From positions 62,001 to 126,000 of the forward strand of contig NZ_AUEP01000010.1 in the NCBI RefSeq assembly GCF_000426045.1: a stretch of 64,000 bases of DNA. The letters are read 5' to 3'. Of the stretch, positions 8,139 to 38,079 are shown piece by piece. The translations under genes and the position numbers were made by a program. The notes beneath the pieces were generated by a model, which saw only the letters and a program-made list of their open reading frames with translations, ran no database searches and was not told the DNA's origin. This DNA comes from Marmoricola sp. URHB0036 (lineage in GTDB: Bacteria > Actinomycetota > Actinomycetes > Propionibacteriales > Nocardioidaceae). Every line of letters begins with the position of its first letter. Position 1 is the first letter of the stretch.

Positions 8139-9449
8139 ATGCTGCTGGAGATCGACTGGTTCTTCCAGCATGCCGACTGGTGGCACGTCCTCTCCATCCC
8201 GGTCTTCACCGGGGTCGTCGGCTGGCTGATCAACTGGACCGGCCTGGTCATGCTCTTCTCGCCGGTGCGCTTCCACGGCATCACGATCCCCGGCATGCGA
8301 CAGCTCTCCCGGGTGCTGCCGCGCAAGATCCAGGAGGTGCCCGGCTTCCTGCAGGGCGGGATCGGCTGGCAGGGGATCGTCCCGGCGCGCGCGGCCAAGA
8401 TGGGCAGCATCGCGGTGGACAAGGCGATCGCCAAGCTGGGTACGCCGAAGGAGTTCTACCAACAGCTGGAGCCCGACCAGATCGCCGAGCACATCGTGCA
8501 GGTCTTCGAGCCCGAGGTCCCGGCGATGGTCGAGCAGATCATCAGGCGCGAGCACCCGAACCTGTGGCGCGACCTTCCCGCCCGCGGTCGCACCGCGGTG
8601 ATCGCACGGGTACAGGCCCAGCTGCCGGGCGTCGTGCACCAGGTGACCGACGAGATCGGCGAGCACATCGACCAGCTGCTCGACCCGAAGATCATGGTGA
8701 TCAACCACTTCCAGAGCAACCCGGCGCTGGTGGTGCGCATCTTCCGCGACTTCGGCCAGAAGGAGCTGAACCTGATGGTCGCGTTCGGGTTCGTCTTCGG
8801 CTTCGTGCTGGGGATCCCGGTGGCGATCGTCGACCACTGGTTCGGCCAGTGGTGGCTGCTCCCCGTGCTCGGTGTGATCGTCGGCTGGACGACCAACGCC
8901 CTCGGCATGTGGCTGATCTTCGAGCCGCCCGAGGAGCACCGGATCCTCGGCATCAAGGTGCACGGGTTGTTCCTGCGTCGCCAGAACGAGGCGGCCGAGG
9001 TCTACGCCCAGATCATCGCCGACGACGTGATCACCCTGGAGAACATCGGCGACTTCCTGCTCGACGGCCCCCGCGGTGACCGCACCCGGCAGATGCTCGC
9101 CGAGGCGATGCGGCCGGCCATCGACAACGCCGCCGGGCCGGTGCGCGGCGCTGTCCGGATCGCCGTCGGCACCCGTCGCTTCGACAACATCCGCGACGCC
9201 GTTGCCGTCGAGGCCGTCGACCGCACCATCAAGCCGTTCAAGGACCCCGAGTTCAGCCGCCGCCAGGCCGAGAAGATCTACGACCTGATCGCCCAGCGCA
9301 CCAAGGAGCTCCCCCCTCGTGACTTCGTGGAGATGATGCGCTCCGCGATCAAGGAGGACGAGTGGATGCTCTACGCGCACGGCGCGATCATGGGCTTCGC
9401 GGGAGGATTGCTCCACCTGGCCATCTTCGGAGTGGGAGGAGCCACGTGA
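8139..9449 (+). CDS. DUF445-family membrane protein
   Basis: 436-residue membrane protein. A hydrophobic segment near residues 15-40 (FTGVVGWLINWTGLVMLF) recurs near 235-280 (VAIVDHWFG...GVIVGWTTNALGMWLIF), the duplicated VGWxTNxxAxxxxF-like pattern typical of DUF445 proteins. A third hydrophobic stretch ends the protein. The middle is helical and charged. Function is unknown in the family; some members are linked to the cell envelope. It overlaps the next gene by 4 bp (GTGA), so the two are almost certainly co-translated. Confidence 0.8.
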   Translation: MLLEIDWFFQHADWWHVLSIPVFTGVVGWLINWTGLVMLFSPVRFHGITIPGMRQLSRVLPRKIQEVPGFLQGGIGWQGIVPARAAKMGSIAVDKAIAKLGTPKEFYQQLEPDQIAEHIVQVFEPEVPAMVEQIIRREHPNLWRDLPARGRTAVIARVQAQLPGVVHQVTDEIGEHIDQLLDPKIMVINHFQSNPALVVRIFRDFGQKELNLMVAFGFVFGFVLGIPVAIVDHWFGQWWLLPVLGVIVGWTTNALGMWLIFEPPEEHRILGIKVHGLFLRRQNEAAEVYAQIIADDVITLENIGDFLLDGPRGDRTRQMLAEAMRPAIDNAAGPVRGAVRIAVGTRRFDNIRDAVAVEAVDRTIKPFKDPEFSRRQAEKIYDLIAQRTKELPPRDFVEMMRSAIKEDEWMLYAHGAIMGFAGGLLHLAIFGVGGAT

Positions 9450-10324
9450 GCGAGCACGACCCGTCACGACGTACGCCGGCCCTGTGGGACGAGGCGGCCG
9501 AGGCACTGCCCGGCATGACCCGGATCGCCGCACGGGCCTGGATGCGCTCGGCCGCGTGGGCCGTGGGTTCCGGAGTGCGCTCGGGTCGCCTCTTGGCGCG
9601 CTCGCTGACCAATCCCGCGGTGGCCGGTGAGCTGGTCCAGGAGGTGGCTCGTGACGTGGCCGAGGCCTCGCGCGCGGTCAACGACGTCGCCCGGGCGGTG
9701 TCGGCCGGCGTACCCATCCCGAAGGCGCTCCTCGACGCGACCGTCTCGCTCTCCTCGGTGGTGCTGGCCGACGTGACACCGAGGGGCACCGAGGCCGAGG
9801 AGAGGTCACTGCGCGAGCGAGGGGAGGAGCTGCTCCATCGGTCGCGCGACGTGTGGAGCGAGGAGGGCGAGACCCACCCCGCCTATGCCCGCATGCTCGA
9901 CGAACTCGCCCCCGACGAGGCCCGGATCCTGCTCCTGCTGCTGCGCGGAGGCCCCCAGCCGTCGGTCGACGTCCGAACCGGTGGACCGATCGGCCTGGTC
10001 AGCTCCTCGCTGGTGGCACCGGGCATGTCGATGATCGGCGCCCGCGCCGGGTGCCGTTACCTCGACGAGGTGCCGGCCTACCTGAACAACCTGTTCCGGC
10101 TGGGCCTGATCTGGTTCTCCCGCGAGCAGCTCGAGGACCCGATGGAGTACCAGGTCGTCGAGGCTCAGCCCGACGTGCTGGAGGCGATGCACTCGGTGCG
10201 CTTCCCCAAGGTGGTACGCCGGTCTATCCACCTGACGCCGTTCGGGGCCGGCTTCTGTCGCGCCTGCCTCGTCGACCCGGAGGAGACCGACGAGCTGCCC
10301 GCGCACCAGATCCCCGAGGAGTAG
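9446..10324 (+). CDS. Abi-alpha (DUF4393)-like protein
   Basis: 292-residue soluble protein starting at the GTG that overlaps the DUF445 stop. Residues about 1-115 are alpha-helical and alanine-rich; residues about 145-275 hold the recognisable part (ARMLDELAPDEARILLLL, YLDEVPAYLNNLFRLGLI, LTPFGAGFCRACL), which resembles the Abi-alpha domain named from a lactococcal abortive-infection protein. Actinobacterial members are mostly chromosomal and uncharacterised, so a phage-defence role is only a possibility. Coupling to DUF445 suggests a membrane-associated two-protein unit. Confidence 0.65.
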   Translation: MSEHDPSRRTPALWDEAAEALPGMTRIAARAWMRSAAWAVGSGVRSGRLLARSLTNPAVAGELVQEVARDVAEASRAVNDVARAVSAGVPIPKALLDATVSLSSVVLADVTPRGTEAEERSLRERGEELLHRSRDVWSEEGETHPAYARMLDELAPDEARILLLLLRGGPQPSVDVRTGGPIGLVSSSLVAPGMSMIGARAGCRYLDEVPAYLNNLFRLGLIWFSREQLEDPMEYQVVEAQPDVLEAMHSVRFPKVVRRSIHLTPFGAGFCRACLVDPEETDELPAHQIPEE

Positions 10325-10352: not shown

Positions 10353-10387
10353 CGCCCACCGGGAACCTGGAGGGGGTCCGGTGGGCG
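10353..10387. terminator. bidirectional hairpin between convergent genes
   Basis: Perfect ten-base arms, CGCCCACCGG and CCGGTGGGCG, with a 15-nt loop. It sits between the Abi-alpha gene (+) and the KAIL-repeat gene (-), and could stop transcription from both sides. Confidence 0.6.
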
Positions 10388-10428
10388 CGACGCTGCAGAA
10401 CAGTGGGCCTGGTGGCCCGGGGGTCAGC

Positions 10429-10635
10429 TCAGAGGATGGCCTTGTTCAGGATGGCCTTGTTGAGGATCGCCTTGTTCAGGATGGCCTTGTTGAGGATGGC
10501 CTTGTTCAGGATCGCCTTCTGGGTCGGCGCCTTGGCGCTCGCTGCCGTGGCGGCCGGTGCGGCAACGCCGAAGGACAGGGCGGCGATCAGGAGGGCGGCG
10601 AAGAGGGTCTTGACCCGGATGCGGATCCTGCTCAT
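10429..10635 (-). CDS. secreted KAIL pentapeptide-repeat mini-protein (copy A)
   Basis: 68-residue protein of unknown function. Residues 1-34 form a clear Sec signal peptide: basic start, hydrophobic core at about 10-30, and an ASA cleavage site. The predicted mature part is KAPTQ followed by five KAILN units and a final KAIL, so every mature residue falls in a five-residue register and the protein stops exactly at Leu. The A-x-L-x-x spacing resembles pentapeptide repeats, but six units are too few for a stand-alone beta-helix; the lysines make it strongly cationic. AGGAG lies 6 nt before the ATG. A paralogue (37891-38079) has the same design, which argues strongly that this is a real gene. 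Confidence 0.8.
   Translation of the reverse strand: MSRIRIRVKTLFAALLIAALSFGVAAPAATAASAKAPTQKAILNKAILNKAILNKAILNKAILNKAIL
10432..10518 (-). repeat. 15-bp tandem coding repeat (KAILN units)
   Basis: Five full 15-bp units and one 12-bp unit encode KAILN x5 plus KAIL. Units differ mostly at silent positions (GCC/GCG, CTC/CTG), so the peptide repeat is kept while the DNA drifts. Confidence 0.9.
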
Positions 10636-10718
10636 TTGTGACTCCTAGTGGTGTTGAAGGGGGTGCGTCCGTTCTATCCGGGGTGCGTTGGTAAGGGCGA
10701 TGGCTATATCGGGTCATC

Positions 10719-10740
10719 TATTTCGCCCGAGTCCGAAATA
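10719..10740. promoter_or_regulatory. inverted repeat upstream of KAIL gene A
   Basis: TATTTCG-N8-CGAAATA, perfect seven-base arms, about 85 nt upstream of the KAIL gene start. It is AT-rich against its surroundings and looks like a dimeric-regulator operator; the regulator is unknown. Confidence 0.5.
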
Positions 10741-10800: not shown

Positions 10801-12180
10801 TCAGGCTTGACGCGCGGCTGGGAGGGTGAGTGTGAATATTGAGCCCTGTGGGTCACGTGGGGCATATGTGACACTCCCTCCCTGTGCTTCGGCCAGGGCC
10901 CGGACCACGAAGAGGCCTAGACCAGTTCCGCGTGCGCGGGTCCCCGGAGCCCGCGCGTACTCCTGGAACAGCCGCGGGCGGAACGACTCGGGCACGCCCG
11001 GCCCGCTGTCGTGGACGGCGATGCTGACGTGCGAGCCGGTGGCGTCGACGCGCACCTCGAAGGGCGGGTCGCCGTACTTGCGGGCGTTGCTGAGCAGGTT
11101 GCCCAACATCTGCTGGAGCCGCATCGGGTCGGTGACGACCATCGGCCGGGCGTCGTTGACCACGGTGAGGTCGAAGGCGTCGTCGATGACCGAGCGCACG
11201 ATGTCCGCAGGGTCGACGTGCTCGAGCTGGACCGCGAGCACGCCGTGCTGGGCCTGACCGGCGGCGAGGAGGTCGGCCGTGATGTTGTCGAGCAACCGCG
11301 TCTGCCGGCTGATGGCGCTGAGCATGCGGGAACGCTCGGCCTCGCTGAGCTCCGGCCCGTGGATGACGAGCGTCTCCGCCACCCCCATCAGCACGCTGAC
11401 TGGGTTGCGGATCTCGTGCGCTGCCGTGGCGATGGCTCGGCGGAGAAGCTCGGCCTCGTCGCCGCTCTGTGTCTGCAGGTAGACGACCTGGTCGGTGCCG
11501 CTGTGCCGGACCGTGACCATCACCCGCCGCGGCGGCTCGCCGAGGTCCAGCAGCGTGGAGGCGTCGTGCTCGGGCTCGTCGACCAGATGCGCGGCCAGCC
11601 CCGGGGCGATGAGGGCGAGGTCGGTGTCGGGTGCGGAGAGGTCGCCGAGGAGACGCCCGGCCTCCCGGTTGGCGCGGATCACGTTGCCCCGGCGTACCTG
11701 CAGGAACCCGAACGGGGCCAGCTCGAGGTGGTCGAGCACGGCTGGGCGCTCAGCCGGATCGGCCGCACCGTCGTCGCGACCGGCCGACACCGTGGCCACG
11801 AGCGTGCGGAGCTGGGCGAGCAGCTTGCTGAGGGGCTGCCCCTTCTGGAGGTAGCCGTCGGCCCCCCCGGCGAGTGCCCGGGTGGTCATCTCCGAGGCGC
11901 CGAACCCGGAGAGCATCACCACGATGGCGTCCGGGCGGGCGCTGCGGACCAGGGGCAGCGCCTCGAGCCCGTCCATCACCGGCATGGCGATGTCGAGGAG
12001 CACGAGGTCGGGTTCGTGAGCGGCTGCCGCATCGACAGCCTCGCGACCGTTCTCGGCATGGGCCACCACATCGAACTCGCCGGTGCGTTCCAGCGCCATC
12101 GTGAGCAGGTCACGCAAGTCAGGGGTGTCGTCGACGATGAGCACCCGCAGTGGTTCGGGGTTCAGCGCGACCCCGCTCAC
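10801..12180 (-). CDS. receiver-PAS-histidine kinase hybrid
   Basis: 459-residue soluble signalling protein. Order: receiver domain (about 11-125) with acidic pair D17/D18, phospho-acceptor D63 and Lys113; a PAS-like region (about 150-235); HisKA with H255 in AHEIRNP; HATPase with N box (NLLSN, 361-365), DSGPG (391-395) and GTGLGL (418-423). The kinase domain looks intact. Having the receiver first is the reverse of common hybrids and suggests that an upstream kinase controls this kinase. It overlaps by 4 bp the gene for an ETR1-like membrane protein, its likely input partner. No DNA-binding output is visible. Confidence 0.88.
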   Translation of the reverse strand: MSGVALNPEPLRVLIVDDTPDLRDLLTMALERTGEFDVVAHAENGREAVDAAAAHEPDLVLLDIAMPVMDGLEALPLVRSARPDAIVVMLSGFGASEMTTRALAGGADGYLQKGQPLSKLLAQLRTLVATVSAGRDDGAADPAERPAVLDHLELAPFGFLQVRRGNVIRANREAGRLLGDLSAPDTDLALIAPGLAAHLVDEPEHDASTLLDLGEPPRRVMVTVRHSGTDQVVYLQTQSGDEAELLRRAIATAAHEIRNPVSVLMGVAETLVIHGPELSEAERSRMLSAISRQTRLLDNITADLLAAGQAQHGVLAVQLEHVDPADIVRSVIDDAFDLTVVNDARPMVVTDPMRLQQMLGNLLSNARKYGDPPFEVRVDATGSHVSIAVHDSGPGVPESFRPRLFQEYARAPGTRARGTGLGLFVVRALAEAQGGSVTYAPRDPQGSIFTLTLPAARQA

Positions 12181-12797
12181 GTGTCCTCACCTGCCCCGGG
12201 AGCATCGGTCCGGCCCTCGACCATCCCCTCGACCAACGCCGGGGAGGACCGGAGCGGGCGCTTGCCGAGCTGCCCGCGGTCGTCGCCGAGCAGCTCGGTG
12301 ATCATCTTGCTGGCCGAGGAGATGCTGCTGTCCAGCGCGTCCATGCCCCGCTGGCGCTCGCCGAGGTCGAGGGCCATCCGGGCGACGACCATGCCCTGGA
12401 GCACGGCGTCGTTGAGCTCCAGCGCGCGCTGCTCGCGCTCGACCTGGTCCTTGAACAGCTGGGGGCTGGCGCTGGTGCCGCCGAAGCCACCCCGCAGCGT
12501 CCAGTAGTAGACGGCGACGACGGCGCCGACGAGGTCCCAGAGGGCCAGGCCCGGCCCCCACGCCTTGCGCATCGCGAGACCCTGCTCGAGGTCGACCCCG
12601 GTGTAGGGCATCAGCATGTGCACGAAGTGGGCGCCGTGGTGGACAGCGCAGGTCAGGAAGATGGCGGCCGTCGCCGCCCCCAGGGCGTTCGTCGTCAGCT
12701 GCCGGCTCACCACCAGCGGCCGGGCGATCGCGTAGGAGATCATGAAGTAGGCAATCGAGATCACGGCGTTGCAGGCCGCCCCCAGCGTCCACCACAC
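12177..12797 (-). CDS. ETR1-like three-helix membrane sensor with DHp-like tail
   Basis: 206 residues: three membrane helices (about 8-30, 38-62, 84-101), then a coiled-coil tail (about 115-172) containing ELNDAVLQGMVVARMAL, a pattern like kinase dimerisation domains but without catalytic region. The first two helices align without gaps to Arabidopsis ETR1 (recalled from memory, offset 15): IAYF at 15-18 matches 30-33, Tyr17 = Tyr32, Cys50 = Cys65 and His54 = His69, the copper ligands. ETR1 Asp25 and Pro36 become Asn10 and Ser21, so copper binding is plausible but ethylene binding is doubtful. Extra histidines (53, 57, 60) surround the site. GGAGG precedes the GTG start. Confidence 0.72.
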   Translation of the reverse strand: MWWTLGAACNAVISIAYFMISYAIARPLVVSRQLTTNALGAATAAIFLTCAVHHGAHFVHMLMPYTGVDLEQGLAMRKAWGPGLALWDLVGAVVAVYYWTLRGGFGGTSASPQLFKDQVEREQRALELNDAVLQGMVVARMALDLGERQRGMDALDSSISSASKMITELLGDDRGQLGKRPLRSSPALVEGMVEGRTDAPGAGEDT

Positions 12798-37844: not shown

Positions 37845-37867
37845 CGTTGGACCATCGGGGTCCAACG
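37845..37867 (+). promoter_or_regulatory. 5' leader hairpin of KAIL gene B
   Basis: CGTTGGACC-ATCGG-GGTCCAACG, perfect nine-base arms, just before the ribosome site GAGGGGAGGG. It would form at the 5' end of the mRNA. Confidence 0.55.
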
Positions 37868-37890: not shown

Positions 37891-38079
37891 ATGAGCTTGA
37901 AGAACCGTGGAATCCGTGGAGCGCTCGTAGCTGTCGCCGTGGCATTCGCCGTCGCCTCGATCCCCGCCGGCGGTGGCGCCGCCCAGGCCAAGGCACCGAC
38001 GAACAAGGCGATCCTGAACCACGCCATCTTGAACCACGCCATCCTCGACAAGGCGATTCTCGACAAGGCGATCCTCTGA
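37891..38079 (+). CDS. secreted KAIL pentapeptide-repeat mini-protein (copy B)
   Basis: 62 residues, paralogue of 10429-10635. A Sec signal peptide (residues 1-33, basic then hydrophobic, AQA cleavage site) is followed by a mature form of six pentads: KAPTN, KAILN, HAILN, HAILD, KAILD, KAIL. As in copy A, the mature part starts KAPT[N/Q], every residue is in register and the protein stops at Leu. Here His and Asp replace some Lys and Asn, so charge is mixed, whereas copy A is uniformly cationic; pairing between them is conceivable. It has its own promoter, a 5' hairpin, a GGGAGGG ribosome site and a terminator, so it is an independent gene. Function unknown. Confidence 0.82.
   Translation: MSLKNRGIRGALVAVAVAFAVASIPAGGGAAQAKAPTNKAILNHAILNHAILDKAILDKAIL
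38005..38076 (+). repeat. 15-bp tandem coding repeat ([K/H]AIL[N/D] units)
   Basis: Four full units and one 12-bp unit. Ala-Ile-Leu is invariant while positions 1 and 5 vary (Lys/His, Asn/Asp). Confidence 0.9.

Follow-up and report, generated by a model that had tools for sequence, protein, structure and literature searches.

A mini-protein gene carrying a tandem array

Gene A lies on the reverse strand of the window, by which we mean the whole 64,000-nucleotide stretch of Marmoricola sp. URHB0036 DNA that was analysed, together with the following features:

10353-10388, - strand: GC-rich hairpin CGCCCACCGG...CCGGTGGGCG after the stop of A, read from the sequence
10429-10635, - strand: mini-protein gene A, 68 aa, a leader (about 34 aa) followed by KAPTQ(KAILN)5KAIL
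10433-10518, - strand: 15-bp tandem array coding the KAILN units, found with Tandem Repeats Finder, with variation at fourfold sites only
10642-10646, - strand: ribosome site AGGAG of gene A, read from the sequence
10706-10740, - strand: inverted-repeat promoter element TATTTCGGAC-N13-ATGACCCGATAT upstream of A, found by alignment
10801-12180, - strand: receiver and histidine kinase gene (Pfam) directly upstream of A, the same neighbour being present in G013 and G014

Translation of gene A gave MSRIRIRVKTLFAALLIAALSFGVAAPAATAASA, then KAPTQ, five KAILN units and KAIL, which agrees exactly with an earlier note on this DNA that had described a leader ending in ASA and 34 further residues of KAPTQ-(KAILN)5-KAIL. 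The note had also given the gene its own ribosome site, and AGGAG is indeed located 6 nt ahead of the ATG. The signal peptide and its ASA cleavage site were judged by eye; the leader resembles a signal peptide and the product is probably exported.

The array produced the highest tandem-repeat scores of the window, at 144 (period 15) and 160 (period 30). Across the arrays of A and a paralogue, C, 2 of the 15 unit columns vary. One is the third position of the Ala codon (GCG/GCC) and the other that of the Leu codon (CTG/CTC), which in the KAILN frame are the two fourfold-degenerate positions of the unit. As all DNA changes between units are therefore synonymous in this frame, the protein is under selection and, on this codon pattern, KAILN is the selected frame of the array. 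Several further frames through the 15-bp repeat are also open, as might be seen in an artefact where slippage had extended a spurious frame that yields no protein. However, the restriction of variation to fourfold sites of the KAILN frame, the retention of leader, start, stop and tail in two paralogues and 11 relatives, dN/dS values of <0.45 and a covarying 5'UTR hairpin all count against such an artefact, which we strongly disfavour as highly improbable.

Neighbouring genes and regulatory elements

Genes of this family stand alone with their own promoter regions, and their neighbours include purC, lon and the receiver-kinase gene, among others. The six loci have no neighbour in common, apart from the kinase that adjoins A in three species, and at the cut-off used a kinase of this type was absent from the other four peptide-bearing species, which makes the link between kinase and peptide weak. 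A second receiver-histidine kinase (L071, contig 8 of this genome, 153558-154907) is 55% identical to that of A and has no adjoining peptide gene. Directly before the kinase gene is a membrane protein (12180-12797, - strand) with a weak match to the ethylene-receptor domain ETR1_N (E 0.0014, below the cut-off), and these two gene products possibly constitute a split sensor. Convergent to gene A are genes for an Abi_alpha-family protein (9449-10324, + strand) and a weakly DUF445-like membrane protein (8139-9449, + strand), both of which are also neighbours in G014. We considered and rejected a role as a cis-acting leader or arrest peptide, because the sister gene B is separated from purC by a GC-rich hairpin, and A has a convergent gene downstream.

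The sister gene and its upstream element are positioned as follows:

37846-37866, + strand: 5'UTR hairpin of gene B, GTTGGACC-ATCGG-GGTCCAAC, with compensatory changes and a fold z of -2.25
37891-38079, + strand: sister gene B, a B-type leader followed by KAPTN-KAILN-HAILN-HAILD-KAILD-KAIL, between an acylphosphatase-like ORF and purC

The promoter element of A occurs in the exact form TATTTCGGAC-N13-ATAGTCCGAWAT in G013 and G014, again upstream of A-type genes. Scanning the whole genomes of this strain (G000), G013 and G014 with up to 3 mismatches returned matches only upstream of A-type genes and none with reversed-pattern controls, while related, more degenerate elements that are beyond the reach of the scan precede C and a second G013 copy. 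Occurring only at peptide genes, the motif was discarded as a marker of a wider regulon. Downstream, the GC-rich hairpin after the stop of A is likely a terminator; a simple scan for T-run terminators found none, and by eye a GC-rich hairpin follows most stops of family genes.

In the B-type hairpin, compensatory changes were observed in 5/8 pairs among 8 distinct hairpin sequences, and this covariation exceeds all 500 shuffles and the slid controls, which supports transcription and selection acting on the RNA. The hairpin also precedes eight other B-type genes in relatives, often with a GCCGG loop, and is placed between a -10-like TANNNT box and the ribosome site. No Rfam family matched in the window. 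It was likewise rejected as a regulon marker, since its matches barely exceed the reversed-pattern control, with an excess close to the number of peptide genes.

Distribution of the family

The earlier note had counted a lack of homologues outside this strain, or a frame disrupted in relatives, against its reading; instead, we found 14 intact members in 7 species. Three are in this genome, A, B (beside purC) and C (contig 1, beside lon), and 11 are spread over six relatives (G001 and G008, one each; G002, G009 and G014, two each; G013, three). A copy is present at the purC locus in 7/7 species, with short orthologues of B in six of them, and among the other genus members, all those for which the locus could be recovered lack it there. 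In a PurC protein tree the seven peptide-bearing species form one branch (support 100/96), and the simplest reading would be a single origin within the Nocardioides/Marmoricola clade without observed loss. Profile searches of 346 Nocardioidaceae genomes and of 397 genomes of the order identified no convincing family member outside this seven-species clade; in both searches only weak matches were seen there, these being low-scoring leader matches, mostly within long open frames. When genome contigs were scanned for the exact pattern, only two clade members matched, and a search of phages and plasmids found no member of the family.

Conservation of the AIL core

In all family members a leader is followed by a variable spacer of 5-7 residues and then, at the C-terminus, by an AIL core that in most cases comes after K or R. 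In the relatives the predicted mature peptide is about 14-16 residues, with APKAPNKAILKAIL, APKEGNRAILKAIL, APKGGNRAILKAIL, GHQPSKSAILKAIL, AKPPAKNAILKAIL and GGKSGNRAILRAIL following an ADA-type cleavage site, and ATKAPTSKAILKKAIL, GSSVTSKAILKKAIL and AVAPKKQAILKAILK as the A-type forms. The conserved element is the C-terminal AIL unit, which tends to follow a basic residue and in most cases occurs twice, at a spacing of 4 or 5, giving tails of AILKAIL, AILRAIL, AILKKAIL, AILNKAIL or AILDKAIL across the family. Thus it is the AIL unit that is conserved, and not its spacing or helical phase.

The pentad array was found in this strain only, at 3/3 of its loci, and is, by comparison with the six relatives, whose tails are AILKAIL, AILRAIL or AILKKAIL, a strain-specific expansion. 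The description of the mature peptide as made only of pentads thus holds for the copies of this strain and fails for the relatives, which have one or two units, and a five-residue register is not supported as the defining feature. The A-x-L resemblance to pentapeptide repeats that the note had pointed out is, with the pentads being an expansion of one strain, probably secondary.

The six short purC-locus orthologues gave dN/dS values of about 0.09-0.42, and all of them keep AILKAIL unchanged while its codons vary synonymously; these orthologues are under purifying selection. In the G009 paralogue pair the tail DNA is 93% identical and the leaders 71%, a contrast compatible with selection by a common partner as well as with gene conversion, while in the G002 pair (tail 76%, leader 61%) the greater homogeneity of the tail is less clear.

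The residue before AIL is mostly basic (K or R) and sometimes H, S, N or Q. With most AIL units following a basic residue, and K replaced by R in relatives, the peptide might be a cell-envelope ligand whose ladder of lysines attaches to polyanions such as teichoic acids or DNA, much as the earlier note had suggested, and whose array adds avidity, which would rise as the array expands. However, B carries less charge, having two His-starting and two Asp-ending units, and AIL is better kept than the base, which is S, N or Q in G013 and G014, and we consider this role improbable.

Possible helical and coiled forms of the tail

The moment of the pentad array at 100 degrees is 0.08, and that of the tetrad form KAILKAIL is 0.46-0.53, which makes the latter moderately amphipathic. 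Given the value for the array, any function that AILKAIL and (KAILN)n have in common probably does not require an amphipathic helix face. This bears on whether the peptide is a membrane-active or antimicrobial cationic peptide, with Lys providing attraction and AIL inserting into the membranes of competitors. A secreted-type leader, a tail that is both cationic and hydrophobic, the amphipathic tetrad and single-sequence AlphaFold2 models in which the array forms one helix (residues 39-67 in A; mature C, pLDDT 92) would all be in keeping with such an activity. Nonetheless, the array has no amphipathic face, the short forms begin with a Pro/Gly-rich segment and reach just about 14 residues, and a single repetitive sequence biases AlphaFold2 to helices, so that the models prove little. 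Furthermore, the partly annotated ORF maps of the loci showed no recognisable genes for immunity, maturation or transport nearby. On balance we regard this activity as unlikely.

The earlier note knew of no matching family, and we found none that fits well, with pentapeptide-repeat family PF00805 (gathering cut-off 20.2 bits) barely reached by A (20.4) and C (22.7). The array of this strain could in principle form an uncapped pentapeptide-repeat β-helix, maybe stacking end to end, or another self-assembling fibre with a structural role at the surface. Among PDB sequences, the array is best matched by two pentapeptide-repeat proteins, NP275-NP276, which contains AILDNAILEGAILDE, and NP275, matches that reflect composition, and the change of N to D after AIL in B is reminiscent of AILD pentads. 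However, B stays below the cut-off at 15.1 and no match is obtained for the short relative from G014, while AlphaFold2 gave a helix and not a β-helix, although single-sequence models are weak evidence either way. Pentads sufficient for coils, at four per coil, are not kept in the 11 homologues of six species, where one or two units at a spacing of 4 or 5 cannot form even one. We therefore view a structural role as doubtful; likewise, since the relatives lack pentapeptide-repeat coils, a function shared across the family is unlikely to require them.

A candidate secreted signal

With neither a helix face in the array nor coils in the relatives to serve as a common feature, what fits best is a short peptide unit acting alone, either released or read at the C-terminus. 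Our preferred reading, which we hold tentatively as a distinct possibility, is that the product of gene A matures into a small, secreted linear peptide with a signalling role. The AIL-tailed precursor would be exported by Sec and cut by signal peptidase after A-x-A, and extracellular proteases would then trim the spacer and, in this strain, cut between KAIL units, such that each precursor yields several copies of a short AIL-containing peptide. Once released, the peptide would have its effect outside the cell that made it, most probably as a signal which kin take up or sense. The precursor would thereby work like the multi-copy pheromone propeptides of the Bacillus Rap-Phr systems without being one. 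That such amplification occurs is known from Bacillus, where extracellular proteases release several active peptides from propeptides with repeated pheromones (PMC11343458; also PMC9765709), and this favours the signal reading by analogy. The A-type motif and the covarying B-type hairpin, as dedicated elements, are also in its favour. A search of the genome with the RNPP_C receptor profile (a single model) gave no match, and the small cationic-hydrophobic peptide of the family could equally be membrane-active instead. A more specific proposal, which we put forward only as a speculative possibility, is a clade-born family of linear pheromones with a [K/R]AIL core and a new type of receptor, in which one species has amplified the signal per precursor at all three loci.

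Quorum sensing by peptides is well documented in Bacillota, while the signals of actinobacteria are described as typically small molecules (PMC10075063). The KAIL peptide is a candidate for a secreted signal of a kind not established in Actinomycetota. It is a clean and testable one: the family is clade-specific, its core hardly varies, it has promoter and 5'UTR elements of its own, and both short and amplified alleles exist in nature. The 14-residue peptides of the relatives are also accessible to direct synthesis. In addition, the comparison of species illustrates the growth of a repeat array from a single functional unit.

Comparison with known systems

The peptides of the relatives, rich in Lys, Ile, Leu and Ala and about 14 residues in length, resemble mastoparan-like short cationic amphipathic peptides; however, the KAIL array differs in lacking an amphipathic face, and no dedicated export system was seen. 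With the pentapeptide-repeat proteins of PF00805, such as NP275 and HetL, the family shares A-x-L every five residues in this strain, and AIL pentads are found in NP275-NP276. In contrast to these proteins, the KAIL family is lineage-specific and secreted-type, and its relatives, with one or two units and in some cases four-residue spacing, have no room for full coils.

The likeness to the Rap-Phr/RRNPPA systems of Bacillota (PMC11343458, PMC9765709) consists of a short secreted-type precursor, a conserved short peptide at the C-terminus and the existence of multi-unit precursors. RRNPPA propeptides are small and Sec-exported, with the short peptide at or near the C-terminus; all members of the KAIL family have a leader and a conserved C-terminal AIL core, from which export and maturation are predicted. 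However, the KAIL family belongs to Actinomycetota, has no adjacent TPR receptor and no match to the one RNPP_C model in the genome, and its precursors carry up to seven AIL-bearing units without a long linker. We file the family under neither the pentapeptide repeats nor RRNPPA.
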